Origin: a virus
IMG/VR virus record: IMGVR_UViG_3300042521_002634
Coordinates: 34,427 to 98,426 of that record
Strand: one strand, 5' to 3'
DNA: 64,000 nt
Shown here: piece after piece, positions 3,601 to 60,037 of the stretch
How positions within the stretch are numbered: position 1 is the stretch's first letter
How the letters are laid out: each line of letters opens with the position of its first letter
Notes under the pieces: generated by a model
What the model was told of the DNA's origin: nothing
Database searches by the model: none
The model's input: the letters and a program-made list of their open reading frames with translations, nothing else
Translations under genes and position numbers: made by a program

Positions 3601-6600
3601 GTTGATGTCCGGATCTGTAAGAGTATCAATCTCGCCTACGCTGTCGCCAAACATGTCGCCTTTTTCAGCGCCACGAGCACGGAACAGCAGTGCGCCACCC
3701 GGATCTACACGAAGAGGATTTCCATCGTTATCTACAACTATGTTGTCGTACACGAGGCCAGCGACATCGTAGTTACCGAGCCACGCGTCAATTGCAAAAT
3801 CTTCGCGGATCTTATCAATGAACTCACCGTCATTTAGTCGATCAGCAAGAGTTTCACCAGTTGTTGAAACAATAGGTGACACTGTACGTGGTGCGCCGTC
3901 TGCTTCACCTACGCGAACGTCTACAGCGTTTACGCCTAGTTCTTTGTAGAATGCAGACGCAAGAGCTTCGTTCTCTGCGTGCTTGAGAGACTTAGATTCT
4001 TTTACGTAGTAGATGTCACCATCTGGGTCTTCGTACGTTCCGCCGAGGTTTGAACCGAGTTGCGGTCCAACTTTGTCCCAGCTTGCGACGTTTGGCTTGG
4101 CTGGTGTGTCAACTGCTGCGTCGTCACCTGGTCCAAAAATATCTGAGTCAGCTGCACCACCGTCAGCGTCAACGCCAGAAGCTGAAACTTGGCGCAAACT
4201 CACGACAGTCAAGTCTGTTCGTCCACCCATTTCAACTCTGCGAGTGCTGTCTACTTCGTAATTACCCCAAGCAATATGCTCTGCTTCTCCTGAAAACCAA
4301 GACACAGACGCGAACGAGATTGAAGTACCCTCATTTGGCTGTATCTCAAACACAATATGCGTTGTCTCGCTGTTTGGAGGATACTTCAGCAGCGACACGA
4401 TATCCTCAGCTGCTTCATCTTTAGTTGTAAATGAGCGAGCGTCAATAGGCAGAACTACGCCAGGAGTTAGGTACTGCTGAAGTGCCGGGTCATCTTTTCT
4501 CACGTCGATGTAACGATGAAGGCGAACATCATTCTTTTCAGCGGACGCGGCCATCAAACGGAAAAACGCTCCAGCTGAAGATTGATCTGAGAATATGTCA
4601 GCATCTCCGTCAGAGATAGCTTCTTTTCCTGTAGTCCACTCCGGGTACCCGCCGTACTCACTAATCAGCCTGTCGTACTCTGCTAGCGCGACTTCTTCAT
4701 CTCCGCCGCTTTGACGTTTAACAGACTCATAGACTGCGCGACGGAAGCCGCTAGTGCTTTGTACTGGTCGCTTGTCGTCCATATCGTTTGTTGATCCACC
4801 GTCGATACTCATCAGCATTCCCCAGAAACCTCTAAAAGCTTCTCGTTCATCAGCTGAGTCACTAAACGACCACGGCATATAGCTGTCTAATACATTTCCA
4901 AGATTTTCAGCGCTGTACTCGTTTAAGTTTGGATCATTTTGACGGTTAATAAGATCGTCTGCAACTTCTTTAATGCTTGGATTCTTTTCTTCATTCTTCG
5001 CAGCGTCTGTCATCTGCGCCACAGCAAGCGCTGCGCGTTGCGGAGTTGCTAGCTCGCCATTACGCTTGATCGCTTGCTTGATTTCCCAATCGCGTGCAGT
5101 ATTGATGTCAGCCGGGTTAAAGTCTTCTCCACCGATCTTGTCAAGGTCGTCTCGCTGCATAGTGATGCGCTCAACGTTTGTTTCACTGCCTTCAGGTAAC
5201 GCGGAGTCGTAGATGCCAGCGACAACAATGTCGGAGTCGATTCCAGCAAAATCAAGTGATTCATACAAAGCTTCTGCTGGAACTGCTTCATCGCCACCGT
5301 CAAATGGCAAATAGCCAAGTCCGATCGCAACGTCACCATCGCTAGACGGTACCAACGCTTGACGAAGAGCTTTCTGTAGATTTTCTGCAGTAAAACTATT
5401 CGCTAAAATCTGAGGATCATCAGTGTAGTCTGTGCTGTCTTGGTCTACACGTCCGCGTGGGTTGTATTGCTCGAACACATTTAGTTTGTACGAATCGTCA
5501 GAAGTGATAAACGTTTCATCGAACAATGATTGATCTACTGGATCGTTAGTCTCAGGCGTACTAGGAGCTTTTTCTGCAGTAAGGTACGGCACTGCTCCTT
5601 CTTCACTGGCTAACTTTCTAATAGATTTCTCGGCGTTGGACTTAGCTTTTTCTATAGAGAAACCACGAAGCTCGACGTTTTCTATTTGCTTTTTCAGACT
5701 GTTATAGATTTGATCGTTGTTTGGCACGTCGTCAATAGCTACGCCAAGTAGATCTAAAACTTCGCTTGCATCGACAGCTCCACTGTTATAAGAGTCGAAT
5801 AACGCTTTTACTTCGCTAACTACACCGTCTAGCGCCGAAGGCTCAGCAGCGACTTCAAGTTCTGCACGCCTACCACTAAAATCAATAGTTGGAAGAGAGA
5901 GATACTCATCAACTGCTTCCTTGAGCACAGAACCGGCGTCTTGCATGTCTGCATTAGTCGCGTTAGAGAGAAGTTCTGCCATTTCTCCAAGGTCAGCGCG
6001 AGCTTGATCGAAGTAAATATCGTTAAGCTGCGAGCCCTCTGGGTCTATGTTGTCTAGCGCGTCTCTAGCAGAGTCCGACAGCTTATTGATTTTTTCAAGA
6101 ATGTTCGCATCGTCGTCGTCTAAGTCATCGAGATCTGCATCATCAATGTCTGTAAGAATTCCTTCCGCTGTAAGTGCGCCTTCGTCAAGAATGTCTCGAG
6201 CAGCTTCTGGTGATGTAAACGGTGGCTCGCCTGGGCCGGCAGTTGGCAGATCAAGCTCGTCTCCCCATCTATCTACAAATGCATTAACAGCATCTTCTAC
6301 AGACGTTTCGCCATTTTCTATTTGCGAAGCTTGATCGTTTAGATAATCAAGCACATCGTCTGTTAGACTATCAACGTCTACGCCTTTTTCTTCTAACGCT
6401 TCTGTTAGCTTGCTTACAATCTCTTGAGATTTGCCGTAGTCGTCTGGCTCGTCTGGACCGCCTGTAGGTGGCTTGCCTGGGGCGCCGGCTGGTGGCTCGC
6501 CCGGGCCTTCGGTTGTTCCGCCAAACGCACGCGCAATTTCTTCGTCGTCGTAGCCGAGTATGTCAGCGATTTTTGCAAAATAGTCATTTGCAATTTTTTC

Positions 6601-8424
6601 CATCGCCTCGTCTTGATCATCAGAATCTTCAATTTCTTTAGCCGCGTCCATTTTGTCTTGCCGCTCTTCAAAAGCGTTGACAATAGCTTTCTTTTCAGAA
6701 CGATTAAACGAATCATTATCATCAATGTTTCTAATGAGGTCTTCGTACTCGTCGCCATCAATGTTGCCAATGTTGTATCCACTTGTGTTTCTTAGGAACT
6801 CGTCACGCTCGGGGCTACCAGGACCTCCGCCTGTGGGTGGCTCGCCTGGGGCGCCAGTTGGTGGCTCGCCTGGAGCGCCTTTAGTGAGTTCGTCAAACAG
6901 CTCTTCACGCTCGGAGCCTTCGCTGTCGTCTTCAAACCTAGCGTCGAATGCTCCGTCGCGCCCTGGGCCGCCAAGGAACGCATTAGCCTCTGCTGGTGTA
7001 AGACGCGGCTTATTGAACGTGACAACTATTGCATCTGCGCCTTCTAGAGTTGGTGTTGTGTCAATTTCTACGAATCCGCCAAGATCATTAGCTCTCTTAA
7101 CTTGATCAGCAAAAGTCTCTAAATCATATTCGTACTCAGCAAGTGGGAACGAGATACTTACTCCGTTACCCTTTGGAATTGTGTTCGGTACAGCGAATGG
7201 TGGCTCGTCTGCTGGTGTTGACAGAGCTTCAAGATCTTGCTTGTAGTCGTCTTGATCAGCAAGAACAGCTTTTTGAACCTCGCTCCATGAGCGCATTACT
7301 TTTTTATCTTTTGCAAACGGATCAGTGTCAGTCGCTTCCATTCGTCGCACTGAGTAGCCGTAGTCAACGCCTGTGCCAGCCGCGTTAGGTCGTGCTTCGC
7401 GCTTTACTGTATAGCCGTCATCGCTTGTGTATTCAGAATAAGACGTGCGGCCCACTTGTCGCGTTTTGCCTAATTGCTTCCAACCGCTAGGAGCATCCTT
7501 GCGCGTGAGAGTTGCTGAGTCTACATAGACATCGTCCATAGCATCATCACGGTCTGGAAGTTCTTCTACAGCTTTTGTAGGAAGAACAGCTTTAACTGAC
7601 TCACCCTTTGCAGATGGCATAGTGTAGACGCCGTCGTCAAGATCTTTGCTTCCAGTTACCTCGATCTCAATTGCGTCAGTACCTGAAGCGCCAACAACAC
7701 GACCCGACACCGTCTTGAACAGTCCGTCAGGCAGACGTAACTTGAACGACCAGCCGCCGCCCATTTCAGCAAAACGGCCTTTGCGGTCGCGACGTTGAAG
7801 CTTGGCACGAAGACTTCTAGCAGCGTCTGAGTTTCCACCGAGACCAAGAACTGCAATGATAGGTGTCAACTGTAAATCAGCGTCGATTCTAATGTCGCGT
7901 GGAATAGCGCCTACTGGAAGTACTGATATTCGTGTAAACGCATGGCGATGTTCGACAGAACCTGGAGTCTGCGAGTACGCTGCTGCGACAAGATTTCGTA
8001 AGTTATCGTCAATTCGTGGATCAGCGGCAAGCCACTGTGCACGCGCAGCGCGTAGTGACGCTTCATTCATCGTGTGTGAACGAGTAGAAAGCGGATGCGC
8101 GACTGGCAAAAGATCTGTGTTAGACAGACGCTCTACACCAGGCTTTCCAGTTCGTGAAAGGTTTATAAATGAATTTACAGCTCGTATAGCCGCAAAAACT
8201 CGTGCAGCAGGCTTAGCACTTGAAGACGATGTTTGAAGAGATCGTGAAGCTGCTATTACAGCAGAGTACGGTGAAATCTGACGATGTGTTTGCAGCTCTG
8301 AGTTTGCACTGACGACCATATCCATGATCGCACCCTTTAGAGCTTTTTGATATGTCAATGGCAGGTCAGCAAACGCGTGACTATACTGATAGCTGCGTTT
8401 CTTTTGTTTATTGTGCTTAGTCAC
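664..8424 (-). CDS. Giant head-associated multidomain protein with kinase-like and ADP-ribosyltransferase-like segments
   Basis: A 2586-residue protein starting at GTG 8424, 11 bases after the DUF5824 gene and downstream of the portal, where actinophages often carry MuF-like or other injected head proteins. An RDRKGRFAEMGGG segment lies near residue 210. Gly/Pro linkers of GEPPTGAP type near residues 515-545, 635-655 and 730 separate acidic helical regions. Residues about 1300-1380 look ADP-ribosyltransferase-like: LHRY, then GTSISFASVSWF, then an E-x-E in GEAEHI. Residues about 1470-1580 look HipA/PI-kinase-like: a Lys in YYVKESK, then DAWLGNYD, then YDNIVVDNDGNPLRVDPGG with DPG in place of DFG. 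A further segment near 2335-2410 (DMATGGADYVFF, YELMFKD) recalls toxin-like phage domains. Pro-rich linkers occur near 1960-2030. A role as an internal head protein delivered with DNA is inference. Domain calls come from motifs only. Confidence 0.75.
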   Translation of the reverse strand: MTKHNKQKKRSYQYSHAFADLPLTYQKALKGAIMDMVVSANSELQTHRQISPYSAVIAASRSLQTSSSSAKPAARVFAAIRAVNSFINLSRTGKPGVERLSNTDLLPVAHPLSTRSHTMNEASLRAARAQWLAADPRIDDNLRNLVAAAYSQTPGSVEHRHAFTRISVLPVGAIPRDIRIDADLQLTPIIAVLGLGGNSDAARSLRAKLQRRDRKGRFAEMGGGWSFKLRLPDGLFKTVSGRVVGASGTDAIEIEVTGSKDLDDGVYTMPSAKGESVKAVLPTKAVEELPDRDDAMDDVYVDSATLTRKDAPSGWKQLGKTRQVGRTSYSEYTSDDGYTVKREARPNAAGTGVDYGYSVRRMEATDTDPFAKDKKVMRSWSEVQKAVLADQDDYKQDLEALSTPADEPPFAVPNTIPKGNGVSISFPLAEYEYDLETFADQVKRANDLGGFVEIDTTPTLEGADAIVVTFNKPRLTPAEANAFLGGPGRDGAFDARFEDDSEGSEREELFDELTKGAPGEPPTGAPGEPPTGGGPGSPERDEFLRNTSGYNIGNIDGDEYEDLIRNIDDNDSFNRSEKKAIVNAFEERQDKMDAAKEIEDSDDQDEAMEKIANDYFAKIADILGYDDEEIARAFGGTTEGPGEPPAGAPGKPPTGGPDEPDDYGKSQEIVSKLTEALEEKGVDVDSLTDDVLDYLNDQASQIENGETSVEDAVNAFVDRWGDELDLPTAGPGEPPFTSPEAARDILDEGALTAEGILTDIDDADLDDLDDDDANILEKINKLSDSARDALDNIDPEGSQLNDIYFDQARADLGEMAELLSNATNADMQDAGSVLKEAVDEYLSLPTIDFSGRRAELEVAAEPSALDGVVSEVKALFDSYNSGAVDASEVLDLLGVAIDDVPNNDQIYNSLKKQIENVELRGFSIEKAKSNAEKSIRKLASEEGAVPYLTAEKAPSTPETNDPVDQSLFDETFITSDDSYKLNVFEQYNPRGRVDQDSTDYTDDPQILANSFTAENLQKALRQALVPSSDGDVAIGLGYLPFDGGDEAVPAEALYESLDFAGIDSDIVVAGIYDSALPEGSETNVERITMQRDDLDKIGGEDFNPADINTARDWEIKQAIKRNGELATPQRAALAVAQMTDAAKNEEKNPSIKEVADDLINRQNDPNLNEYSAENLGNVLDSYMPWSFSDSADEREAFRGFWGMLMSIDGGSTNDMDDKRPVQSTSGFRRAVYESVKRQSGGDEEVALAEYDRLISEYGGYPEWTTGKEAISDGDADIFSDQSSAGAFFRLMAASAEKNDVRLHRYIDVRKDDPALQQYLTPGVVLPIDARSFTTKDEAAEDIVSLLKYPPNSETTHIVFEIQPNEGTSISFASVSWFSGEAEHIAWGNYEVDSTRRVEMGGRTDLTVVSLRQVSASGVDADGGAADSDIFGPGDDAAVDTPAKPNVASWDKVGPQLGSNLGGTYEDPDGDIYYVKESKSLKHAENEALASAFYKELGVNAVDVRVGEADGAPRTVSPIVSTTGETLADRLNDGEFIDKIREDFAIDAWLGNYDVAGLVYDNIVVDNDGNPLRVDPGGALLFRARGAEKGDMFGDSVGEIDTLTDPDINPSASRVFGGMTEEQRKASAQKLLDITPQRIDQIVDSIVTDPGMAEGLKDRLKKRRADVLDRFDIEDSVLNMPEVAQRPTAPADKSPESIEAFKDELARFAMDKAIAKGWNCEGGLTSAATNPCDLPSVNELIAEATPTDAELAEPKVRQLPSDEEVSNAFDVIFDDIETYLSSDWGLEGSDKSKYKKTRAKIEDIRERYDAGEITREEAAAELAALRDEISASGGEPVAKEATAEAIDHIIKNLDGTIYDPVVVIDKDLPPPGSGLGLSKDKVTLVKPGMTVKSKDGVTYVVHRYDPSNWNYVYVKPTDGSKEKIKSTKTLEIVGGEGGGGGTPTAPEPSGPELPKAEAPKGAPKAPEVPFPDNMPLAPRAPEPPKSKKDKQQGVVGPGVEPVIIEEALPYTSSGIPGTPSLADAFAFVASDEPNAAIIGSYAAIDSTDIEDMSVRVTRLRSLETSEQITRMRYKLTAWAGEQLYKDVQDLKRNEYTITNGVALKEISRKDAAVPALKPDTNVYNNWRHGTTYEATLPNGVKIQFFRGAQGSYTDHVFSRSVEDYDEVVNALNNYVIIDVPDGVSPDSVRSAFNIAGVVDPRPSVEQDFRVLIENRLMSVLGGKTNASRNEARPEVRQEILSEVKTKYGIGVEDVYVGVGANGRIEMRVSKEKAAALAKEAKIEIAEHNLTVSAGYRPDPELAAKKIADIIVGPNRALMSTLARWTEGVGGSGQSSETDMATGGADYVFFSPKDMTVTSSIGYGVSDASDATVTFDAVDLFTRLDFYANYVDTYGARSEENDNLKNAAPGGYELMFKDRVSTDMLKDIVVHTRVVPFLIEELKNRGITEINGRSVDEVVTVGGQGVVMEKEGAVKKFQTKLDENLKTRFGEDFGGAKKYKDWLNEDPSGRAKEYAPPVDENAVIVAVKDLNNEKQERVIVRLTNGAYLSYTRYTGAIGAPFTYEYQEIENDFPGWTYLTSDEQSKGSN

Positions 8425-19587: not shown

Positions 19588-19614
19588 GCTCATCCTTTCG
19601 TCGTTGATAGATAC

Positions 19615-19632
19615 AATGTATCATCTCCGGAA
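19615..19632 (-). promoter_or_regulatory. TTCCAGAG-type promoter, leftward half of a divergent pair
   Basis: TTCCGGAG, ATGA, TACATT, feeding the gene at 19587. It is back to back with the plus-strand copy at 19671, with about 40 bases between. Confidence 0.8.
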
Positions 19633-19670
19633 CTGAAGTCGTAGGCCGGCTTAGTCAGAGTCCGCTCTAG

Positions 19671-19688
19671 TTCCGGAGATGATATATT
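19671..19688 (+). promoter_or_regulatory. TTCCAGAG-type promoter, plus strand
   Basis: TTCCGGAG, ATGA, TATATT on the plus strand, feeding the rightward gene at 19730 through a leader ending in AACGACGAAAGGACGAAA, the same leader type used by the leftward genes. Confidence 0.85.
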
Positions 19689-19729
19689 TATCTCATCAGC
19701 ACAACGCTGGTAACGACGAAAGGACGAAA

Positions 19730-27888: not shown

Positions 27889-29682
27889 TTAGCGTTGAAC
27901 TGACTCCAGCGCTCTTGCTGCTGCAGATCCTATCTGCGTCGCTACGTCTGCGGCACTTGTAATCTTCTCGACGAGCTGCACTGACTTGGTGCTCGAGCTA
28001 TTGAGAAGTCGACGAGCGTCGTCACTCGCTAACGGAGACACAACCATGACTCCGACACCAAGTCTTTCGCACTCATCTAACCAGCGTCGTGCGTTCTTCG
28101 TCTCTTCGTGAGTGTAACACAGATCGCTAACGATGACGAGCAATCGCGCGCCTACGCCATTGAGCAAGTTCAACGAACCATCAAGCGCTTTGAATGCTTT
28201 CTCAAAGCGTTCAGTTCCATCTGGCGCCGAGTACACTGTCACCTCTGACAAGTGCTGCCCGGGCTTCAATGTTGGGAACACCCCAGTGCCGTAGTAAACC
28301 ATCGCCGCACGGCCTTGAACTCTCCGCACCGCTTCGCTCATGACCCACGCTGTCACTGCCATCGGCTCCATCGCCGAGGACATTGAACCGCTGATGTCGA
28401 CCATTACGCCGACAGTGAGAGTTGGGTCGTCAGTGTGCGTGCGCTTAGTCCGGCGCCATGGCTCTACTTGCGTCATGATGCCCTTCGACTTAAACGCTGC
28501 TCCCTGCACCATAGCGCGCGTGCGCAACCGGCCAGGAGGAACGATCGACTTAATCTCAGTCTCGTCACGCTCACGATACTTAGCTTTCTCAAGCATCTGC
28601 GCTACCTTGACTGCTGCTGCTCGTTCATCACCACGTGGAGCGCGCTTTTCAACTAGACGACTGTTTGTCTCAGAAGAAGATTCTGGCCCAGTGCCTCTAC
28701 CGAATACTTTGTCCGCAGCGTCCTTGTGTTCTTTCTGCTGCTTCGCTGCACCGCTTCGACTTTTAACTTCACGCTCCCATTCTTCTTGCGTCTGTTGATC
28801 TGCTGCATCGGCTGAACCACCGACAGCTGCGTTGCCAGCTGCTTCCTCGAGTGCTTCCTCGAGTGCTTCCCCGAACTCGCCAAGCTCGCCTAGCCCTGAT
28901 TCACCTTGACCAGGCTCTGGCTCACCAGCTTCAGCTGCTGCCTCTTTAACTAATCTTGCCCACTCACGGGCGACAGGGTAGAGACCTTCAATTGAACTGT
29001 GTGAAGTGTAGTCCTGAGCTTGCAGCCATAGGTTGCGAAGCTTAGTGAAGAGCTCTACACCAAGCTTATTGATTAGAACTTCCTCTACAGTCTCGATGTC
29101 TGACAGCTCGAGTGAACCCGCATCTACGCGTGCTGACGTGAGTGCCGCCATGTGCGCTGCTGTCCACATGCTGCTGGTGTCTACACCGGTGACATTGAGG
29201 TCAGCCATCACTATCTCGAGCGCGCAAGCGCGGAGAAACCCGGAGTTACCTGGCATCAAGGTGACGCCTAAGTTCTCGATACGACCTTCTTCAAGAAGCA
29301 CGAGTGCTTTGAACTCAAGAGACTCGAGGTCCTTCTGCGCTTTAATGAGATCCCAGCGAGAGAACCGAGCGTGGAGAGCTTCATGGAATATGACACCAGA
29401 AGCTTTAGGCCAGTCGAACTGAACGCTGCGTTGCGTCATGTCGCCGATCGACGCCGGCGTTATTGACTTGCCAAACGCTCTCGTCACATCTACTTCGATC
29501 TCTGCAAGCATTGGGTTGTAGCACGCTGGTGCCACGCCGCCACCGGCGCCTGGGCCGACGTACGCGATAACATCTGCGCGTTCTGCCCAGATATTTGTAA
29601 TCTGGCCGATCTGCACGCCTACGCCTAACCACTCGGGTGGCGTAGCCTCAGCTCGAGAGCTATTAATCTTAAAATGTGTCAT
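27889..29682 (-). CDS. VWA-domain protein with N-terminal HExxH motif (CobT/ViaA-like partner)
   Basis: A 597-residue protein. Near residue 96 is FHEALHARFSR, an HExxH metal-binding motif. The middle (about 255-360) is an acidic, Glu/Ala-rich low-complexity region like that of CobT. A C-terminal VWA domain has a full MIDAS start, VDISGSM near residue 428, and later LLVIVSDLCYTH. Directly upstream, as a separate unit, is a MoxR-type AAA+ ATPase, so the pair forms a MoxR-VWA system that usually remodels or inserts metal into a target complex. The target here is unknown. Confidence 0.88.
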   Translation of the reverse strand: MTHFKINSSRAEATPPEWLGVGVQIGQITNIWAERADVIAYVGPGAGGGVAPACYNPMLAEIEVDVTRAFGKSITPASIGDMTQRSVQFDWPKASGVIFHEALHARFSRWDLIKAQKDLESLEFKALVLLEEGRIENLGVTLMPGNSGFLRACALEIVMADLNVTGVDTSSMWTAAHMAALTSARVDAGSLELSDIETVEEVLINKLGVELFTKLRNLWLQAQDYTSHSSIEGLYPVAREWARLVKEAAAEAGEPEPGQGESGLGELGEFGEALEEALEEAAGNAAVGGSADAADQQTQEEWEREVKSRSGAAKQQKEHKDAADKVFGRGTGPESSSETNSRLVEKRAPRGDERAAAVKVAQMLEKAKYRERDETEIKSIVPPGRLRTRAMVQGAAFKSKGIMTQVEPWRRTKRTHTDDPTLTVGVMVDISGSMSSAMEPMAVTAWVMSEAVRRVQGRAAMVYYGTGVFPTLKPGQHLSEVTVYSAPDGTERFEKAFKALDGSLNLLNGVGARLLVIVSDLCYTHEETKNARRWLDECERLGVGVMVVSPLASDDARRLLNSSSTKSVQLVEKITSAADVATQIGSAAARALESVQR

Positions 29683-29715
29683 TTGTCCTTGTCCTTTGTT
29701 GTCCTTGTACTATCA

Positions 29716-29733
29716 ATTATATAAACTCTGGAA
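29716..29733 (-). promoter_or_regulatory. TTCCAGAG-type promoter
   Basis: TTCCAGAG, TTTA, TATAAT, feeding the VWA gene. Confidence 0.85.
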
Positions 29734-29738
29734 AGAGA

Positions 29739-29772
29739 GGTTAGCCTCCCGCACACCTACGGGAGACCAACC
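29739..29772 (-). terminator. Hairpin after the MoxR-type ATPase gene
   Basis: Thirteen-base arms GGTTAGCCTCCCG / CGGGAGACCAACC with one mismatch around 8 bases. Confidence 0.6.
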
Positions 29773-29800
29773 AACGAAGACTGAGCGCGAAAGGCAGCGC

Positions 29801-30793
29801 TTAGATCTTCGCCGGGCGACACTCTTCTCCGAATACTCGGGTGAAGACGTCAGCCACGACTGGGCGATCCATCTCGGGAGCGGCAGCTAGCAAGTTCGCG
29901 ATAGCGAATGATGTGCCGAACTCCTTTGCGAGATCGCGGAACGCTAGAAGCTCACGCATCTGAGGAGCCCATGAGACTTCAGACGACTGCTGCTTCTTAC
30001 TTAAATTTTGCGCCGCAGTGACGATTGGCACCGGAGCTCCTAACTTACGAGCGAGCGACCAATCAGTCGTCATCTCTGCTTGCACAAGGAATCGTGACAA
30101 GAGAGCTTCAGACAATCGCACGCCTGGAGCGTTCGGGTTAGTCGCTGCGATTACGTAGAAACCTGGAGCAGCTTTCACTGTCCCACGCTCTGGGTTAGCA
30201 GTCACAGTGTATTCACGACGGCCATCCATGAGACCGTAGACGATACTGAGCACCTTCGGGTCGATAAGACCTACCTCATCGATGAGCAGCACTCCGCCGC
30301 ACTCCGCTGCTTTAAGCAGTGGGCCGTCCTCCCAGACAAAGCCACCACTTGGTGTCTGCACATATCCGCCGACTAAGTCAGCAACTTCTGTGTCGCCTGA
30401 GCCGAGCACTGTGAACAAGCCACCGGACTCGCCAGTGAACGCAGCTTCAACAACAGCAGTCTTACCGCAACCTGGTGCGCCGTACAAAAGTACGTATGCT
30501 GACATGTCTCTCGACTTGCGAAGCACCATGACATCGTCATGCTCACCCCACTTGCGTGAGTAGTAGTTCTCGCCATTTGGTCGAGTGTAACTCTTCTCGC
30601 CTACAAGCGCGTCTGCAGATATCATTGGAACTTTCTTCTTCGGAGCGATAGTCTTAGCCTTGACGCGTCCTGCGTCGAGAACCATTGACTTCATCTTATC
30701 CGCGAACTCTGAGTGCAGAGTCTGCCCCGCTGCTGCAAGCAGCACTTTGTCTAGCCCCGGGTGGAGCTTGTCGTATTCTGTACTTGATAACAT
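29801..30793 (-). CDS. MoxR-type AAA+ ATPase
   Basis: A 330-residue ATPase. Walker A GAPGCGKT is at residues 105-112 and Walker B is in GGVLLIDEVGLIDP. Sensor 1 is in AATNPNAPGVRLSEALLSRF, with an arginine finger (SRF). MoxR ATPases act as hexameric chaperones together with VWA proteins such as the one encoded next door. The start has an AAAGGACACAAA leader. Confidence 0.9.
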   Translation of the reverse strand: MLSSTEYDKLHPGLDKVLLAAAGQTLHSEFADKMKSMVLDAGRVKAKTIAPKKKVPMISADALVGEKSYTRPNGENYYSRKWGEHDDVMVLRKSRDMSAYVLLYGAPGCGKTAVVEAAFTGESGGLFTVLGSGDTEVADLVGGYVQTPSGGFVWEDGPLLKAAECGGVLLIDEVGLIDPKVLSIVYGLMDGRREYTVTANPERGTVKAAPGFYVIAATNPNAPGVRLSEALLSRFLVQAEMTTDWSLARKLGAPVPIVTAAQNLSKKQQSSEVSWAPQMRELLAFRDLAKEFGTSFAIANLLAAAPEMDRPVVADVFTRVFGEECRPAKI

Positions 30794-34340: not shown

Positions 34341-34748
34341 TTATATATTATCATCTCTGGAAACCCAGTTGCCTTCGGTATCGCCAAAGAGTAGCTGATC
34401 GTCTCCAGTTCTAGTCCAAGAAAACTCGCAGCACGAGTGTTCGTCTTCGTCTTCAAAAAGAGTGTGATACGGGGCACCGGCTCGAAAAATGTTTGGAAGA
34501 GCGCGAGCAACCTTTAGAAAGCAGTCGTGACAGAGCACTGTCATTTCTCGTTCTGGTTCTTCAAACATAAAATCGACGAACATGCCATAGCCGCCAAGTA
34601 AGTCAAGGACCATGCCATTTATAACTTGCGGATACTCTTCACGAGGCTCGTAGTCGATATCTACGTCTTCCACGTATTTTGGATTTTGAACGTGAGTATC
34701 CTGATTACACTCGTCGCAACGAGTCTTTGGGTAGCTGTCTCTTATCAT
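34341..34748 (-). CDS. Cys-rich hypothetical protein, leaderless
   Basis: A 135-residue protein with Cys pairs in TRCDECNQDTH and VLCHDCFLK, likely a zinc site, and an acidic C-terminus ending GNWVSRDDNI. The ATG at 34748 is seven bases after a TATAAT box and lacks a ribosome-binding site, so it is probably leaderless. Function unknown. Confidence 0.75.
   Translation of the reverse strand: MIRDSYPKTRCDECNQDTHVQNPKYVEDVDIDYEPREEYPQVINGMVLDLLGGYGMFVDFMFEEPEREMTVLCHDCFLKVARALPNIFRAGAPYHTLFEDEDEHSCCEFSWTRTGDDQLLFGDTEGNWVSRDDNI
34345..34362 (-). promoter_or_regulatory. TTCCAGAG-type promoter
   Basis: TTCCAGAG, ATGA, TAATAT, feeding the winged-helix gene. It overlaps the end of the upstream gene. 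Confidence 0.8.
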
Positions 34749-37785: not shown

Positions 37786-38435
37786 ACTTCGTAAACCGTC
37801 TCCTTGTGATGTCTAACCTTTATCGTCGGATCTATCCAGATTTTATATCCTGACTGCTGAGCTTTGGCGCACCATGAGTAGTCTTCTCCAACGTTCACCC
37901 TCATCTCAGATTCAGAGCTCCACTGCAGTCTTGCGATGAGAAACCAAGGTCTTGGCATATTTTCAAAGACTCCAGATTTCACCGCAAGAAACCCAAAGCC
38001 GACGCCGCCAACTTCAACAGGAAGATCGTGGAGGAGGAACTCGACCTTGTTCACTCGCTTGGGCACACCTCGATCGTCTGGGTAATTGACCGCTACTGTG
38101 CCTGCGGTATCTAAAACGTACAGCCCGGAAACGATGTCCTTGTCTGACTGAAGGAGCTTCACAAAGTCGTGAGCATCCCACTCGATATCTGAGTCGATCC
38201 ACACGATCTTGTCGTAGGTGAATTCTCCACCGGCGATCTGATTTGAGTCGTAGTCGTGCTGCCACTTGTCGATAGCGGTCAGCTCTCGTGCCGTCGGCAC
38301 AAACGACGAGTACTTGTTCAAAAATGTGTAATTAAGTCCAAGCGAGTTAAGTACTCGAGTTGTCTTAACCAAACTCTGTACGTACTCGGCATGAAACATT
38401 CTGCCGGGTGTGGCGATTACGACGTTGAAGTGCAC
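37782..38435 (-). CDS. GT-A type glycosyltransferase
   Basis: A 217-residue enzyme with a GTG start at 38435 that overlaps the upstream TAG (TAGTG). The GT-A fold is marked by VVIATPGRMFHAEY, then the metal-binding DxD motif in KIVWIDSDIEWD, and a C-terminal GEDYSWCAKAQQSGY typical of the catalytic acid region. Phage glycosyltransferases can modify DNA, virion proteins or host envelope; the target is unknown. Confidence 0.82.
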   Translation of the reverse strand: MHFNVVIATPGRMFHAEYVQSLVKTTRVLNSLGLNYTFLNKYSSFVPTARELTAIDKWQHDYDSNQIAGGEFTYDKIVWIDSDIEWDAHDFVKLLQSDKDIVSGLYVLDTAGTVAVNYPDDRGVPKRVNKVEFLLHDLPVEVGGVGFGFLAVKSGVFENMPRPWFLIARLQWSSESEMRVNVGEDYSWCAKAQQSGYKIWIDPTIKVRHHKETVYEV

Positions 38436-38941
38436 TATATAGCCGTAAAGCACTCACGGCACAACAGTGCGTTTAGCGCGGATGCTTCATTCTTTTTGTA
38501 GACTCCAGTAGTTCCTTGACCAATCGGAGTTGGAATAATCTTGTCGGTCGGCTGCTCGCATCTATCGCACACGATTGGCACGATCCACTCGAACGATTTG
38601 CCTCGCTTAAGCGCCTCGGCCATTCCGCGACTCAAGGCGTGCTCAGCGCCGGGACCTTCCGTTTTACGAAGAAAGCATCGGGTATCATTTGTCTTAATTA
38701 CCGGACGCGCGTTCTTGCACGGGCAGTGCATGGCCGACGGTTTGCACACGACCTGCCCACGACCCTCGACGATCGTATGCTTGTGCATCGCGTGGCCACA
38801 GACGCAGATCCTCTGGTCTCGAGGACCATTCTCTCGTCTAATCTCAGTAGCCTCTTCAATTTCCTCAAGCGAGACTCCCAGAATTGCCATGGCCTTTTCC
38901 GTCGCTACTCGAGCGGATTCAACAGATTCAACGTCACTCAT
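38435..38941 (-). CDS. Zinc-binding hypothetical protein
   Basis: A 168-residue protein with several Cys/His clusters: ICVCGHAMHKH, KPSAMHCPCKNA, VCDRCEQP and LLCRECF. They suggest two zinc sites. N-terminus acidic and helical. First gene of the leftward unit from 39 kb; its -10 box overlaps a TGTACA palindrome. Confidence 0.75.
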   Translation of the reverse strand: MSDVESVESARVATEKAMAILGVSLEEIEEATEIRRENGPRDQRICVCGHAMHKHTIVEGRGQVVCKPSAMHCPCKNARPVIKTNDTRCFLRKTEGPGAEHALSRGMAEALKRGKSFEWIVPIVCDRCEQPTDKIIPTPIGQGTTGVYKKNEASALNALLCRECFTAI

Positions 38942-38988: not shown

Positions 38989-39021
38989 GACATCATTGTA
39001 TCACGGCATCGACTATAAAGT

Positions 39022-39167
39022 ATTACTGACTATACAAAAGTAACTATATTTTTGCATACTACTATTTTCAACTATAGTTCTCGTTACCCCTATACGTATA
39101 CGTATACGTGTATACTAAAAATAATTGAATATAGTAGTATGCTATATAGTTAATATAGTCAGTACTA
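39022..39167. repeat. Long imperfect palindrome in AT-rich DNA
   Basis: The left arm (about 39022-39075) and the reverse complement of the right arm (about 39124-39167) share the ordered blocks CTGACTATA, AACTATA, GCATACTACTAT and TTCAA. The centre at 39091-39106 is TATACGTATACGTATA, itself a perfect palindrome. It sits where transcription diverges. Candidate replication origin or protein-loading site. Confidence 0.65.
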
Positions 39168-39690
39168 AGACACTTTGTTGTGCGCGCACACAGAAAATCC
39201 CCTAGTACACTTTTTTCCCTCTCTCTTTCTTTTTTCTTCGTTCTCTTCTTCCTTAGTCAATAACTGCGGCGAAAAACTGCAACTAGGCCCCAAATTCCTA
39301 ACGTACTATACTTGCCCTCTACTCCTCTTCTCACCTCTTCGCACAAGAATAGTACCTTAGGAGCGGCGAACTTTTGACGTCCCAAGAGTGCCTTCCCCTC
39401 CCTCTCCTCCTCCTCCGCTTTCTCTTCTACTAGCGAAATAACCGCGGCGAAAAAATAGCGTCAAAGCATCCCTTCTTCCCCTTCCTCCGCGGCGATAGAA
39501 GAGAGGGCGGTAGGCGCAAGAGCACCCCAAGCGCAGACAGTGACAGCAGTGACGAAGGCGTTCTTCTATAGAAATAACTGCGGCGAAAAATTCAACCTTA
39601 TATATCTCTTCTTCCTCCGCCTCCGCCGTAGAAATAGTTGGCGGAAGAGAGTTCTCGCCGGGGCGGAGAGTAGATATGATTTGACACATC
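39168..39690. other. Gene-free control region with repeats
   Basis: No convincing ORF. Contains polypyrimidine tracts and three copies of AATAACTGCGGCGAAAAA (39259, 39437 with CCGC, and 39573), plus related GCGGCGA words. Probably a regulatory or replication region. Confidence 0.55.
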
Positions 39691-39927
39691 ATGCGATACA
39701 CAGAAGAAGACAGACACGCTAGAGCTCTTCGCAGAGTAAAGGCATGTGTTGAAACGCTGTGCAACGTCGCCGATGATCTTGACGATCCTGAGGAGATCTC
39801 GCGCAGAGCGGATCTGCTTATCGCGATTGAAGATCTTGGAGACGTGACTAGTTATCTAGTAGACGCGACACGAGTCATCGCATGGCGTGACGTTGTACAC
39901 GAACCTTCTGAGGAAAACTACGAATAG
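39691..39927 (+). CDS. Small helical protein
   Basis: A 78-residue protein opening the rightward genes (MRYTEEDRHARALRRVKACV, then SRRADLLIAIEDLGDVTSYL). A TATGAT box ends ten bases before the ATG with no ribosome-binding site, so a leaderless or near-leaderless start is possible. Function unknown. Confidence 0.7.
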   Translation: MRYTEEDRHARALRRVKACVETLCNVADDLDDPEEISRRADLLIAIEDLGDVTSYLVDATRVIAWRDVVHEPSEENYE

Positions 39928-39938
39928 CAAGGAATAGA

Positions 39939-42900
39939 GTGCGAAAAGCTCGATCTGTCTGGGGGAGAGAGCAAAAAGCATTTAGTAAAATAATTAGAAG
40001 CGGAGCGTGGATTCTCGTACCCGCTGCACTGATCGCGCTTGTCATGCCGCCCGTGACGTCAGTTCAGGCCGCCACTATCTCGAATATCTCGAACACAGGT
40101 TTTGAGGATGGAACTTTCACTGGTTGGAACAAAGGTTCTCAGACAGGAACGTTAGGCAACACGATAACTGGCAACGGTAGTGGCGTAACTATATTTACTG
40201 GTTCTCGTACTTTTACTCACGGCTCTAGAGGTGCTGTTGGAAGTCCGTCTAGTCCGTATTACGCACCAGCAGTTGCTTCTGGCAGTTGGACATTCTCCCC
40301 TAATAACGGAACAAATGCTGTTCTGCTTCAACCCAAAGGTGAACAGACTTTTGACCAAGCGGCAAGTGCTTTGAGCCTTTCGGCTGGCTCGGTAACAGAA
40401 ATCAAAAACATGCTTACATCGCAGGCGCAAGCATCAGGCAACGGTCAAGGTACACCGACAGACGCAGCATGGATAACTCGTGAAGTGGAACTTACAGCAG
40501 GAACGACATATACAATGGCGTGGAACTATGTCGGAACTGACTATGTTCCTTTTAACGATGGCTCTATCACATCACTCATTCCTGTGACTGTTACTGGCAC
40601 TCCAGTAGTAACGGTAAACAACTATGTCAAGCAATACGCACTTCTTGGATTCACCAATCCTGGCACTGGCGACTACTCAACAAATTCTTATGGCTCTACG
40701 GGTTGGCAAACTTCAACATATCAAGTCTCTATAAGCGGTACTTATAAACTTGGTTTTGCTTCGTTTAACCTTGACGATTCAGGCTTACCTCCAGCGCTGA
40801 TGGTTGACAGCGAGGCTGGCTCCACTGAGCGTTGCATTTCTGGAACCTGTACATCATTTGGTGGAGTTGCATCAAATAATGAAACTGCTCCAACGGTTGC
40901 GCCTACAACTACAACTACTGTTGCCCAAACCACTACTACCAGTAGTACAACTACCACAAGTACTACGACGACAACTACTACAACTACTACGATTCCTGCA
41001 CCAACATCGCTCGAAGTTACGAGTCTCTTAGATGATGGTTCAAGCGGAACTCTTCGCTGGGCAATCACCCAAGCGAATGCAACCGCAGGTGGAATCTACG
41101 ACGCAATCACTTTTGATATTGATGGCACAATCACCTTGACCAGTGCGCTCCCTCAAGTTACACAAAACCTCACAGTCACAGGAAACGGAAGAACACAGAC
41201 AATAATTGATGGAAACAATCTCTATCGCCCATTCAATATTGCAAGCACCAAGTCACTGACCATTTCGGACATGACTTTAAAGCAAGGACAAGCAACTAAC
41301 GGCGGTCTGATACTTAATGGTTCGGGCACTTTGTCTGCCACCAACATTCGCTTCACTGGAATGAGTGGAGGCTCTGCGGTATTTAACAATAACAATGGCT
41401 CTGTCTCAACCCTAACGAATACAACATTTGACTATCTATATATTGGTATTGCTGGAGACTATGGTTCAACGCCATCGGCTTTAAGTCAAACGGATTCTGA
41501 TTACACAAATCGCACATACGTTTATGATTCGGTTTTTTCTAATAACACCTACGGAATATCTGGACAAAGATTTTTCAAGATAAACAACACGCAATTTTCC
41601 AACAATACACAGGCTGGCGCTTCGTTGAATGGGCTCAACCGTCAACAGGTAACCAACTCGACATTTACTTCAAACGGTATTGGCTTGTATTTCTCGTCTT
41701 GGATTCCAACAAGTTGGGCTGTTGGCGCTGGCAACCAAACAGTTTCAGGTAGTACATTCAACGGCAACACCACTGCTATTCAATTTGCAAACTCTTGGAA
41801 CAACGGGTCAACCAGTTACAACGGAGCAAGCGCAAACTCGTTCTCAACAGCCAGTGGAAATACATTTGGCGTTACTGCGCTAAACACAAACAATTTCTCT
41901 GGCTCTGGGTATGTGGAGTCCAACAACACAATCACTGCGGCTTACCTGAATCCAGTTACGAACTTGACGGCTGTTGCAAACGCAGACGGAAGTGTTGACC
42001 TTGATTGGGATGCATCGGCGGCAAGCAATTGCGTCATCTACGGTTACTCAGTTAGTTTCTACGACCTCACCGTAATTGGTGGAGCAACATCAGGTGGCTG
42101 GGGCGTTTGGACTAATCAAGGAACCAACTACTCGTTGAGCACTGGGATGTTTTCTGGCAGTAACCCTGTCACGACAGGATATGGACCAGTTCGTTTTGGT
42201 ATCAAAGCAATGACGGGCGGGTGTGTTGGGGTTGGAACTGGTAGTTGCACCTATGGCCCTGAAGTAACTATTGATGCAACAGTTATTGACCCGACTCCCG
42301 TAACAACTACTACCACTAGTACAACTACAACAGTTCCCTATCAGCCCGTTCCAGGTCCCAATAATCCTGGTCAATCCGATAACGGAGGCGACTCTTCGCC
42401 AACTGATACAACAGAACCACCATACATAATCCCATTACCTGAAACAGAATCCACAACGGTGACGCTTCCAACAGAAACATTACCTGGAACCGAATTGCCA
42501 ACAGTAACCATCCCAGAAGAGTGGGAATCAACAGAAACAACTTTACTACCAATTGAAGTAGACCCAACAGAAACTGAAACGGTAGTAGTAATAATTCCAC
42601 CAGATGATTATACCGTCACAGACATAGAAGACGACGAGCCAATCACAACGGTCATATTGGACAATATTCTTGAAAATACGTTCACTACTGATATTGAGGC
42701 TGACGAGGTTGGCGCTGTTCTTGACACGCTCCTTGGCGCAGAACTTACCGACGCTCAATTTGACAATGTCCTAGAAGCCGTGTTTACCGAAGATGTTTCG
42801 GCAGATGTATTCACTGAAGCACTGACGACGATGCTGGATGCAGACATCACCAGCGAACAGTTGACAGTAGTTTTGGATTCAGCATTCTCGGAGGATACTT

Positions 42901-43868
42901 CTGCTGAGAATATGGTGTCGGCTTTGGTGTCAATCTTTGATGGTCCGCTTAGTTCTGGTGACCTAGACAAAGTTATGGACGCAGTATTTGACGAGGACAT
43001 TTCGGCTGCAGACACTATGACCGTACTTGACGACTTGCTTGAAACAAATCTCAGTCAAGCAGAAACAGAAGCAATCTTTGACAGCGTGTTTGACGATGAC
43101 CTTTCCGATGCAGAAACCATTGACCTTATCGTTGATGTATTGAAAGACGGTCTTACCGCAGACAATTTGGGCGCCGCACTTGATGCAGTCTTTGACGAAG
43201 AAGTAAGCACCGAGGTTTTGATTGAAACCTTTACCGCAGTCTTGGGTAATGAACTTAACGAAGAGTCGCTCGGCGTCATCGTGGACGTCTTGGAATCGGA
43301 CACGATTACGGGCGAGCAAGTTGGACAAGTTGTCACATTGGTAATTCAACAGGAAGGTGGTATTCCTAGTGACCAAGCAACGGAACTGGCAACGAGCTCC
43401 AAAGTGCTTGAAAGCATTGACGGCGAACAAGCGACAGAAGTGTTTGCCGCAATCGTTGTTGCCGAGGTCTCGCAAGAAGCGGGTACTGAAATTGCCGAGG
43501 CACTTGCGGGAGCTGTAACAGAAGTAAAAGAAGCATTCCAAGAAGAAATCAATGTGTTTGCTGGAGTATTTGACACGTATGTCCCAGTTGACTCTAGCGT
43601 TGATGTTGGAACTCGTCGTTCTCTTGTCGCTGCAGCTGCAGCCGTATCAACCATGGCCGTGGCTGGCACCGCGGCTGCGGGAGCCCCTAGCGCGCCTAGC
43701 GGCGGCAGTTCGGGCAGTGGCAGTGGCAGCGTTAGTGACAGCAACAACGCAGCACGAAAAGAGAATGAAGCCGAGCAAGAAGCTGCAGGAGAGATTGCAG
43801 GTGGAGAAGAAGACGAAGATGACAAAGAGTTTACCCGTAACAGTATCTACAAATATATCGAGGAGTAA
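39939..43868 (+). CDS. Large secreted beta-helix/repeat surface protein
   Basis: A 1309-residue protein with a GTG start after AAGGAATA. Residues about 22-45 are a signal segment (AWILVPAALIALVMPPV). A beta-rich lectin-like region follows. A poly-Thr linker lies at about 320-353. A right-handed beta-helix runs from about 355 to 680, with repeated asparagine-rich turns (NNTQFSNNTQ). An Fn3-like domain spans about 690-790, and a second Thr/Pro linker follows. From about 905 to 1130 there are around seven acidic 34-residue repeats such as LTDAQFDNVLEAVFTEDVSA. A C-terminal hydrophobic segment near 1226-1249 is followed by an acidic tail. Possibly a host-derived surface protein, adhesin or receptor shield. 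Confidence 0.8.
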   Translation: MRKARSVWGREQKAFSKIIRSGAWILVPAALIALVMPPVTSVQAATISNISNTGFEDGTFTGWNKGSQTGTLGNTITGNGSGVTIFTGSRTFTHGSRGAVGSPSSPYYAPAVASGSWTFSPNNGTNAVLLQPKGEQTFDQAASALSLSAGSVTEIKNMLTSQAQASGNGQGTPTDAAWITREVELTAGTTYTMAWNYVGTDYVPFNDGSITSLIPVTVTGTPVVTVNNYVKQYALLGFTNPGTGDYSTNSYGSTGWQTSTYQVSISGTYKLGFASFNLDDSGLPPALMVDSEAGSTERCISGTCTSFGGVASNNETAPTVAPTTTTTVAQTTTTSSTTTTSTTTTTTTTTTIPAPTSLEVTSLLDDGSSGTLRWAITQANATAGGIYDAITFDIDGTITLTSALPQVTQNLTVTGNGRTQTIIDGNNLYRPFNIASTKSLTISDMTLKQGQATNGGLILNGSGTLSATNIRFTGMSGGSAVFNNNNGSVSTLTNTTFDYLYIGIAGDYGSTPSALSQTDSDYTNRTYVYDSVFSNNTYGISGQRFFKINNTQFSNNTQAGASLNGLNRQQVTNSTFTSNGIGLYFSSWIPTSWAVGAGNQTVSGSTFNGNTTAIQFANSWNNGSTSYNGASANSFSTASGNTFGVTALNTNNFSGSGYVESNNTITAAYLNPVTNLTAVANADGSVDLDWDASAASNCVIYGYSVSFYDLTVIGGATSGGWGVWTNQGTNYSLSTGMFSGSNPVTTGYGPVRFGIKAMTGGCVGVGTGSCTYGPEVTIDATVIDPTPVTTTTTSTTTTVPYQPVPGPNNPGQSDNGGDSSPTDTTEPPYIIPLPETESTTVTLPTETLPGTELPTVTIPEEWESTETTLLPIEVDPTETETVVVIIPPDDYTVTDIEDDEPITTVILDNILENTFTTDIEADEVGAVLDTLLGAELTDAQFDNVLEAVFTEDVSADVFTEALTTMLDADITSEQLTVVLDSAFSEDTSAENMVSALVSIFDGPLSSGDLDKVMDAVFDEDISAADTMTVLDDLLETNLSQAETEAIFDSVFDDDLSDAETIDLIVDVLKDGLTADNLGAALDAVFDEEVSTEVLIETFTAVLGNELNEESLGVIVDVLESDTITGEQVGQVVTLVIQQEGGIPSDQATELATSSKVLESIDGEQATEVFAAIVVAEVSQEAGTEIAEALAGAVTEVKEAFQEEINVFAGVFDTYVPVDSSVDVGTRRSLVAAAAAVSTMAVAGTAAAGAPSAPSGGSSGSGSGSVSDSNNAARKENEAEQEAAGEIAGGEEDEDDKEFTRNSIYKYIEE

Positions 43869-57391: not shown

Positions 57392-60037
57392 TTATCTAGC
57401 AAACCGTGCTGCAACGCTCCAATCAACTTCGCCAGTTTGAACTACACGAGGTACAAGTTGGCGATGCATGATCTGCGCTCGTGATCCTACGCCGTTAATT
57501 TCAATACCACGCTCGCTAAGCTTGCGTTGAAACGCAATTTGTGTCATTGGCTTTTCACCTCGCTCGTCACTCCACAGACGGTACACAGAGTACAGTGACT
57601 TAACAGGGGTTGCTGTTCCTTCAGACTCTTTAGTTTCTTCAGTCAAGAAAAAGCCGATACGGTCTTCATTTTTTCTATAGACTTCTGCTGCGGCGCTTAC
57701 AACATTACACCAGCCAAGCGAGTCACGAGATGAAGAATTAAGTACCTTAATCGCGCCTTCAACTGCCCACGACAGAACAGCAGGCAGCGCGCCTTCAGGA
57801 TCAAAAATATAGTGCTTAAGGCCAGGATCAGGGTTTTCAGGAACGTTGAGCATTGGAATTGGCCGAATACGTCGCCACATCGCATCATCACTAATAATTG
57901 GCCGGTGATTAGTTGTTACCCACAATTTAGCGCGTGACTGAAACGTAAATGGTTTTTCACCAGGCGAACGCGCTGAGATCTCAGATGAACCAGTCAGCTT
58001 TTTAACTGAGTTTTCTTTCATGCGCTCGTTGTCTGGAAGTTCGTCAACCCACACAAGACGACGACCTCTAAGCTCAGCCCAGTGATACAAATCTGCTCCG
58101 CTGGCGTGACCGTCTCCTTGAGCAAGAATACTAGAGTCTAACGGCCAAGCGTACTGTTGAGTGCCCATAGCCTTGACAAGCGCTTCTACTAGCGTGTTTT
58201 TTCCAGACCCTGAAGGCCCGTAAACTAAAAACATAACATCATGAGTTCGAAGACCAGTCAGCGAGTAACCAGCTGCGCGTTGAATCCACTCTTGATATTC
58301 TTTGTCTCCGTTGGTAGCGAACTCGATGAATTGCTCCCAGCGTACGTTGCGAATACCTGGATTGTACGACACAGGCGCACGACGAGTTATGTAAAGGTCA
58401 GGCCGACCTTTCAATAGTTCACCGGTGCGTAAATCAACTACTCCATTCAAAACTCCAAGCAAGTGCTCATCGGAGTCCCAGTTTTCTACACCTACCAAAA
58501 TTCTCGGATCGGACGTCGCGTTTTCAATTGACCCGGTAAGCCGTGCGTTTGATTTTGCCTGCTGCGCCCACTTAATCACCTCTGACTGCTTATCTGCATC
58601 GTCAAGGTAGTGAACTACTTCGCTGGCAATAATGGGCGCGACTTTTTTAGCAAGTTCGCGCATTTCCAAATTTTCAACATCTGGCTTCCAATATCCGCCG
58701 TCCCAATGAAACCAACCAAGCCCTGGAGTGTACCGAACTGCTGCGCCAAAAGAATCAATAAGTCTTCTACCGTTTCCAGTGTCTGTCAATGTTCGTTTAC
58801 CCGGTTCACCACCTTCGTCTTCACCAAGCGCGTCTGGGTCTTTTGGAACGTCAATATTAGACAGTCTGCTTGCATCAGCAAGTGAATCGCCATCTTCAAC
58901 TGATGACATTACAGTTCCGCCAATAGTGCCGGGCAGATTACTTTGCTGCGAGTAAGCAGCGTACGCTTGCTTTGACTCAGCTTCAAACGCAGCTTGTGTC
59001 GCGGTTTCTTGCGGTGATCGTTTCAATGCTGCGCGCGACTCTTCTTGTGATTTCACGGCCCACTCATTTAGTCCTGGCCATATTTTTTCAGTTCTTGGGT
59101 TGTCAAGAACAAATTGAATTGCACGACGCACGTGCATTAACAGTCCGCCTGGACCTTCAAGCTCTAGAGGCGGTCGAACTTTTTCTGCGTTAAAGCGAAT
59201 CATCATCGTCTCAACAGCAAGTTTTCCTGCTTCTGTATTTACAGGAAACTTATTTGCCAATGCACATGTCATTGCGTATATATCGACTGCTCTTGATCCT
59301 TCATCAATACCATCGCGCAAAAACTTGTCAATATCAATTCTTTCGCCTGCAAAGTCAAGCTCTCCTAGAAATGACCAATCGCCTTCTCCAACGTTTGTTG
59401 CAGACTTACGCCCTCGTTTACGCAGCGCAGACAGCAGCTCTTCGGGCGCGGTTGCAATTTCAATTTCCCACGGCGCCTTGCCTTTTACCCACTCATAGCA
59501 CACTCCTGAGAAGTGACGTGACGGCGCTATTAGCACATATCCATTGTGCTTAATGTCTATTCCGTCAAGACCAGATTTCTTTAAGTTTCCGACCAGTGAC
59601 TCAGACTCGTCGCACTTGTAGAATAAATGGCGTCCTCTAGACACACGACCATTGTACGTGTATTCGCCGGTGATCGCTTCAACAGTTGGCGGAAGCGCTC
59701 CTTCAACCAGCGCTTCAAATTTTTCAAACGAGTCTGGGCCGCCCGCTCTTGGGTCGATATCTATTACAAAAAAGCCGCTAGGTCGACAGTATACGCTGAC
59801 GTTAGTTTCAGGTGTTTGTTCCCACCAGCGAGTAACTACTGCTAGATCACTAGTTGCTTGAACGTTCCATTCAGTTACACTAGGGTGCTTACCTACGTCC
59901 TTGGGTTCTGCGTGAACGCTTCCGCACGTGCACTTACCGTTTACAATGCCATAGCACGGTAAAATACGCCAGCCCATGTTTGCGTACCAAGACGCAGCTG
60001 GTCCAAGTCTATCGGTTGCAGATTCCCATGCCGTCAT
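57392..60037 (-). CDS. Primase-polymerase/SF3 helicase
   Basis: An 881-residue replication protein. N-terminal AEP/Prim-Pol domain: GWRILPCYGIVNGKCTCG, then FFVIDIDPRAGG with D93/D95 and RGRHLFYK. The middle has a D5_N-like region. The SF3 helicase has Walker A GPSGSGKNT near residue 610, Walker B in RLVWVDELPD and sensor-type KLWVTTNHRPII. It likely primes and unwinds phage DNA; it is the only replication initiator-like enzyme in the window. Start ATG follows AAAGGTAATTA. Confidence 0.92.
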   Translation of the reverse strand: MTAWESATDRLGPAASWYANMGWRILPCYGIVNGKCTCGSVHAEPKDVGKHPSVTEWNVQATSDLAVVTRWWEQTPETNVSVYCRPSGFFVIDIDPRAGGPDSFEKFEALVEGALPPTVEAITGEYTYNGRVSRGRHLFYKCDESESLVGNLKKSGLDGIDIKHNGYVLIAPSRHFSGVCYEWVKGKAPWEIEIATAPEELLSALRKRGRKSATNVGEGDWSFLGELDFAGERIDIDKFLRDGIDEGSRAVDIYAMTCALANKFPVNTEAGKLAVETMMIRFNAEKVRPPLELEGPGGLLMHVRRAIQFVLDNPRTEKIWPGLNEWAVKSQEESRAALKRSPQETATQAAFEAESKQAYAAYSQQSNLPGTIGGTVMSSVEDGDSLADASRLSNIDVPKDPDALGEDEGGEPGKRTLTDTGNGRRLIDSFGAAVRYTPGLGWFHWDGGYWKPDVENLEMRELAKKVAPIIASEVVHYLDDADKQSEVIKWAQQAKSNARLTGSIENATSDPRILVGVENWDSDEHLLGVLNGVVDLRTGELLKGRPDLYITRRAPVSYNPGIRNVRWEQFIEFATNGDKEYQEWIQRAAGYSLTGLRTHDVMFLVYGPSGSGKNTLVEALVKAMGTQQYAWPLDSSILAQGDGHASGADLYHWAELRGRRLVWVDELPDNERMKENSVKKLTGSSEISARSPGEKPFTFQSRAKLWVTTNHRPIISDDAMWRRIRPIPMLNVPENPDPGLKHYIFDPEGALPAVLSWAVEGAIKVLNSSSRDSLGWCNVVSAAAEVYRKNEDRIGFFLTEETKESEGTATPVKSLYSVYRLWSDERGEKPMTQIAFQRKLSERGIEINGVGSRAQIMHRQLVPRVVQTGEVDWSVAARFAR

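Follow-up and report, generated by a model that had tools for sequence, protein, structure and literature searches.

Among described replication origins, the closest counterpart to the element reported here is that of the Sulfolobus plasmid pRN1 (Berkner et al. 2014), a stem-loop of ∼100 nt with a 21-bp stem and a 58-nt loop, which is both essential and movable (PMC4234260). The loop is required, and one damaging change in the stem needed restored symmetry for rescue. pRN1 and pRN2 differ more in the stem-loop than in the sequence on either side of it. It is located 54 bp downstream of the replication gene, whose product combines a Prim-Pol and an SF3 (D5-like) helicase with a C-terminal winged helix, and the authors proposed the same type of origin for phage BIP-1 (PMC4234260).

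Other systems share some of these features. In RSF1010, the RepB' primase, which belongs to the same superfamily (archaeo-eukaryotic-type), starts synthesis at the DNA hairpins of ssiA and ssiB; each of these sites is 40 nt long, with a short hairpin and specific flanks, there is one per strand, and the iteron origin is separate (PMC4434180). The sso of rolling-circle plasmids and of ICEBs1 are sets of non-coding stem-loops in which structure is kept with different letters, as in the pBAA1 sso; they act on rolling-circle single-stranded DNA and are read by host enzymes (PMC4595007). The Prim-Pol of phage NrS-1 has a preferred template start sequence (TTTGGTTA, GTG), where the site is an 8-nt motif and there is no stem-loop (PMC8718748, PMC7102993).

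The window, that is, the whole stretch of DNA analysed (64,000 nucleotides), comprises positions 34427–98426 of a 98,426-bp IMG/VR record (G000). The element within it is centred on a palindrome, with the following parts.

39021–39167, no strand: imperfect AT-rich palindrome, arms of ∼50–60 bp (self-reverse-complement score, shuffles, DNA fold)
39026 and 39154: inverted motif pair CTGACTATA / TATAGTCAG
39042 and 39145: inverted motif pair AACTATA / TATAGTT
39054 and 39131: inverted motif pair GCATACTACTAT / ATAGTAGTATGC
39067 and 39125: inverted motif pair TTCAA / TTGAA
39091–39106: centre of the palindrome, TATACGTATACGTATA

A sequence-only reading of the window had picked out these motifs in inverted order, and all of them are present, from 39026 to 39162. 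Its account of the surroundings also agrees with what we find: the DNA is AT-rich (the GC content of the palindrome is 25.9%), free of genes and placed between divergent genes, leftward at 38435–38941 and rightward at 39691–39927 and 39939–43868. Divergent transcription alone is not evidence for an origin. When searched in its own record, the palindrome matches its reverse complement with 75% identity over 147 bp (E 2.9e-20). Its local self-complement score is 70, compared with 47 for the runner-up across the 98,426-bp record and 24.4 ± 4.6 (maximum 44) in 2000 dinucleotide shuffles. Taken with single-stranded DNA folding z-scores of −6.4 (+ strand) and −7.8 (− strand), these values place the palindrome far beyond chance. 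The perfect centre that had been described is present in this phage, but it is not a conserved palindrome in relatives, where an asymmetric loop of ∼39 nt with a small inner stem is found; the alternating TATACGTATACG is this phage's form of the conserved loop sequence TATACGYGTA.... Elsewhere in the window, positions 19611–19693 hold a strong inverted repeat (ATACAATGTATCATCTCCGGAACT, a 34-nt loop, AGTTCCGGAGATGATATATTTATC), which is the best large-loop stem and the second-best palindrome of the record.

Relatives were gathered through the CobT/VWA-like protein encoded at 27889–29682 (∼60% identity), and 21 more loci came from a search with aligned Zn-motif proteins (38435–38941). A terminase identity for 27889–29682 was dropped in favour of the CobT/VWA-like assignment; the protein is encoded beside a MoxR/AAA ATPase (27889–30793), and this arrangement is conserved in the family and in giant phages of Microbacterium. 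Nearly all relatives have an imperfect palindrome in the same place upstream of the Zn gene, with other letters (in L023, for example, the arms read ACTCTGTTACTGAACTATTTTT...AAAAATAGTTCAGTTACGGAGT). With 26 relatives aligned (A4), the locus has the following features, where 5' and 3' refer to the orientation of the Zn gene.

38435–38941, minus strand: Zn-motif protein (CxCGH...CxxC), first gene of the leftward block, always adjoining the element
38995–39003, minus strand: predicted extended −10 promoter TGATACAAT of the leftward block (TGnTAnnnT in relatives)
39056–39079, minus strand: stem P2, 3' arm, the 24 bp common to all relatives (A4 columns 145–168)
39080–39116, minus strand: conserved loop of ∼37–39 nt, TATACGYGTA ... 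GGGGNTAAC, containing the most conserved A4 columns and nearly constant in length
39091–39106, no strand: inner mini-stem P3, 39091–39096 with 39101–39106 and a 4-nt tip, in the same register in most relatives
39117–39140, minus strand: stem P2, 5' arm (A4 columns 82–105)
39163–39207, minus strand: short inverted repeat SL1, arms 39199–39207 / 39163–39171 (TACTAGGGG / GTCTTAGTA), ∼27 bp apart (match to covariance model R1 at 39053–39210, 118 bits)
39296–39314 and 39344–39362, no strand: arms of a second SL1-like inverted repeat, GTACTAT...ATAGTAC
39691–39927, plus strand: small divergent gene conserved across the junction, 43–47% identity to relatives

Read in the direction of the Zn gene, the shared order is SL1, 35–50 nt, P2, a loop of ∼39 nt with P3, 13–63 nt, TGnTAnnnT and the Zn gene. 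The 24 bp of P2 are common to all and the stem is longer in many relatives; the loop starts with TATACGYGTA, ends with GGGGNTAAC and contains the 6-bp P3. SL1 has the form TACTAAG, ∼28 bp, CTTAGTA, and is present as one or two units, which in some phages are tandem with a 59-bp period. Its arm spacing in relatives is 38 bp and its arm letters co-vary, being the same within one phage and different between phages (TACTAAG, TACTAGG, TACTATC, TACTTAG, CACTTAC). The TGnTAnnnT box follows the stem after 13–63 nt in nearly all relatives examined. This predicted promoter would serve a one-way late gene block of ∼80 kb, at the head of which the element is located.

The Zn-motif protein had no match in Pfam, PHROG or NCBIfam, a single-sequence search of viral contigs found no relatives, and a search of bacterial genomes with its alignment found none either. 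Invariably the first gene past the element, it could encode a partner of the element. Between the predicted promoter and the start of this gene there are three TGTACA boxes with 14-bp spacing (38955, 38969 and 38983), which look like operator sites; similar TGTAC repeats are seen in the same place in L030, L005, L056 and L031. The divergent gap also holds three copies of AATAACTGCGGCGAAAAA (39259, 39437 and 39574), one of them with CCGCGG, and the equivalent gap in phage DSL-LC01 has three GTTACCG-type dyads (L119, 17.7–17.9 kb).

A covariance model of the element finds a single strong copy per genome, always by the same Zn-motif gene, in about 35 relatives, and the palindrome is thus kept despite changed letters. 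One strong copy at the fixed junction was found in 13 of 14 further records (57–136 kb) and in the complete genome of DSL-LC01. The model also gives a weak match on the other strand, which a palindrome would be expected to produce. Outside the training set, matches were obtained in DSL-LC01 (75 bits), L029 (66), L109 (98), L092 (80), L152 (113) and L162 (100), as well as in L151; the distant relative L098/G017 gave a weak match only. In the loci read, the junction has the Zn gene on one side and, on the other, the small divergent gene and a large secreted repeat protein. The rank of the stem-loop within a genome counts against an origin: in a scan for large-loop repeats the stem-loop came first in only one of six genomes, and in DSL-LC01 it ranks only about sixth among that genome's own inverted repeats. 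Four Microbacterium phages with the same Zn gene and primase family gave no match to the model. Some of the best large-loop repeats in the stretches fetched from these phages are in the same intergenic gap, the strongest being those of Cece (L116, 4652–4757) and Pumpernickel (L117, ∼4700), upstream of the Zn-gene homologue. These are possibly a far relative of the element, but this is only a hint.

Covariation was scored on A4 for the structure named by hand, with shuffled and slid alignments as controls. The proportion of paired cells is 79.8%, against 64.4 ± 1.0% in shuffled and 36–46% (36.5–46.0%) in slid alignments. The number of cells changed on both sides is 173, against 70.8 ± 6.6 and 53–78, respectively, and there are 88 pair types beyond the first, a value reached in none of 500 shuffled alignments (68.4 ± 3.6). 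In P2, 20 of the 24 pairs have changed on both sides, and the Watson–Crick types per pair require at least 37 whole-pair replacements in this 24-bp stem alone, whatever the tree; in P3, 67.5% of cells are paired and double changes are seen in four of the six pairs. This is comparative proof that DNA pairing, rather than letters, has been preserved at one place across about 35 relatives.

Such a signal could come from a structured RNA, a non-coding RNA or leader transcribed in the direction of the Zn gene, with SL1, P2 and P3 as RNA helices below a conserved apical loop. The three helices do covary in one register, the loop is conserved, and at inner conserved pairs such as columns 98/152 and 99/151 the mismatch is U·G and not C·A. 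An RNA helix tolerates G·U and does not tolerate A·C. The raw mismatch counts (G·T, 63; A·C, 29) and raw RNA folding energies, which are lower on the Zn-gene strand in most elements, appeared to fit this, but the signal vanishes after correction for composition. The G·T and A·C mismatches in P2 number 36 and 29, where shuffling by column composition predicts 52 and 40, so that there is no G·U preference, and the composition-corrected folding z-scores favour the Zn-gene strand in just 15 of the 30 elements (means of −4.0 and −3.8). In addition, the promoter that can be recognised is on the downstream side of the element, with no extended −10 pattern at a fixed place on its other side in the relatives examined, and an Rfam search returned no fitting family, only sub-threshold matches to AT-rich hairpins, none of them near the gathering score. 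Given that there is neither a G·U excess nor a strand bias in folding, the element looks like one maintained as DNA, with a hairpin possible on either strand; this argument is statistical and leaves room for a transcript, and we consider an RNA explanation improbable. Strand-neutral covariation is also what template switching would yield, to which long AT-rich palindromes are prone, and quasi-palindrome correction could in principle match the arms with no selection on the structure. Mutation alone is nevertheless very improbable, as selection is needed to explain persistence at one place in about 35 relatives, together with the constant loop length, the conserved loop, the flanking repeats and the promoter.

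The main rival is a regulatory element, which the adjacent promoter suggests, as does SL1 with its fixed spacing and its arms identical within a phage. The palindrome and SL1, upstream of the leftward block's promoter, would then be binding sites for phage-specific regulators with fast-diverging recognition sequences, or a cruciform switch driven by supercoiling. In nearly all relatives a conserved extended −10 box follows the end of the element after 13–63 nt, SL1 keeps its 38/59-bp spacing while its arms differ between phages, and there are more repeats nearby (TGTACA and AATAACTGCGGCG, three of each). However, whole-pair replacement at 24 or more consecutive positions would demand a protein whose recognition covers over 20 bp of each arm and whose specificity is different in every phage. 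In addition, the variable distance to the −10 box shows no helical phasing, and no motif is shared through the P2 arms except the innermost ACTAT/ATAGT. Transcription control is, on this balance, a serious but unlikely explanation. A long palindrome with a TACGCGTA-like centre is also reminiscent of the N15-type telRL, which would make this a site for telomere resolution by a protelomerase, or another recombination or packaging site. Against this, the ResT/TelK family (PF16684) is absent from six genomes, with a positive control, contigs continue across the site, the sequences of two relatives close through end overlaps (114 and 127 bp), the centre is asymmetric in relatives, and the terminase genes of DSL-LC01 are far away. 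We rejected the protelomerase site on the first two of these points, and the reading as a whole is scarcely credible.

Some further candidates were also set aside. A rolling-circle double-strand origin was rejected on the absence of an HUH initiator of the Phage_GPA family (PF05840), the only family covered, with a positive control. For an N4-like virion RNA polymerase with a hairpin promoter no support was found: the giant protein at 664–8424 has no polymerase match; a search for T7-like RNA polymerase (PF00940) gave no match, but the control genomes gave none either. The protein at 664–8424 has 2586 amino acids and no convincing family match, and at the counterpart place in DSL-LC01 there is a gene for 3289 amino acids between those for the portal and the capsid protease.

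The presence of a primase-helicase in the window, which the sequence-only reading had proposed, is borne out by domain searches.

57392–60037, minus strand: candidate initiator, Prim-Pol with D5_N/SF3 helicase and Pox_D5-like C-terminus (PF09250, 4e-31; PF08706, 7e-26; PF03288, 3e-6; TIGR01613, 7e-56)

A homologue of this Prim-Pol–SF3/D5 protein was found in 8 of the 13 records searched, and at least two of the five without one (G003 and G014) end before its expected place. Its gene is 16–33 kb from the element; in the window, only 80 nt separate it from the next gene. These large tailed phages, for which Actinomycetia hosts are predicted, also encode a family-A polymerase and an SNF2-type helicase, and DSL-LC01 a RuvC-like resolvase. 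DSL-LC01, assembled from lake metagenomes, is the closest described genome, and the part of its published description considered here mentions no such element (PMC10611076).

The best explanation for the element is that it is a stem-loop DNA replication origin of the pRN1 type, to which we give a probability of roughly 0.5. The conserved palindrome and the link to a Prim-Pol and SF3/D5 enzyme known from pRN1 (PMC4234260) partly support the proposal of an origin at this place, whereas the change in GC skew that the sequence-only reading had set as a check is missing. There is no switch at the site in this record, in DSL-LC01 or in four relatives of 130–136 kb. In six genomes the third-position GC skew follows the gene strand, and the minimum of cumulative GC skew is nearer the primase gene in DSL-LC01 and in this record. 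The AT-skew minimum of this record, at record position 73853 (window 39427), is close to the element, which gene direction explains. The skew thus gives no support for a bidirectional origin, and is still compatible with a one-way origin.

As in pRN1, the replicon encodes a protein of the Prim-Pol, SF3 (D5-like) helicase and winged-helix type and has a non-coding stem-loop, here with a stem of 24 bp or more and a loop of 37–39 nt, whose pairing is kept while its letters change; that the variation exceeds that of the flanks was, in our case, judged by eye. The AT-rich, gene-free setting with an adjoining promoter, at the head of the one-way block, is also consistent with an origin. Unlike pRN1, the primase gene is far from the stem-loop, SL1 repeats and a promoter flank the element, there is an inner stem in the loop of ∼39 nt, and the replicon belongs to a tailed phage (∼130 kb) that encodes a family-A polymerase of its own. 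The fixed arm spacing of SL1 and its identical arms in tandem units are, moreover, more like a protein site than a free hairpin. The structural and enzymatic features of pRN1 are found here and the position is not, and for this reason we offer the pRN1 type as the best explanation and do not place the element among its proven members. In contrast to ssiA and ssiB, the element has a single long hairpin, inside which is a conserved loop, and, unlike the replicons with an sso, these phages have no detectable Phage_GPA family initiator. Part of the family has in its loop a sequence related, but not identical, to the NrS-1 motif, TAACGAAA (reverse complement TTTCGTTA).

We infer that the element is extruded in vivo, recognised by the enzyme and active as an origin. 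Where the phage DNA is negatively supercoiled or locally melted, the arms of P2 would pair within each strand, exposing the conserved loop of ∼39 nt with the mini-stem P3. The Prim-Pol–SF3 helicase protein would assemble at this exposed loop, possibly with guidance from SL1 and from transcription that starts at the neighbouring extended −10 promoter. The helicase would then unwind the DNA, synthesis would be primed in the exposed loop, and the family-A polymerase would extend the product.

More tentatively, the element may represent a distinct family of structured-DNA origins in large freshwater actinobacterial phages, in which each genome has one covarying hairpin plus SL1 and the Prim-Pol–SF3 helicase that recognises them comes from a distant gene. 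Origin function would in that case depend on pairing and on the letters of the loop, and not on a binding site of fixed sequence. For most large tailed phages we know of no identified origin, and the main support for the stem-loop origin model in the widespread Prim-Pol–SF3 phages comes from a single archaeal plasmid and from one phage for which it was proposed, BIP-1. The pairing preserved in about 35 relatives gives this model a sharp bench test, and indicates that covariation statistics, usually a tool for RNA, can also detect structured DNA.
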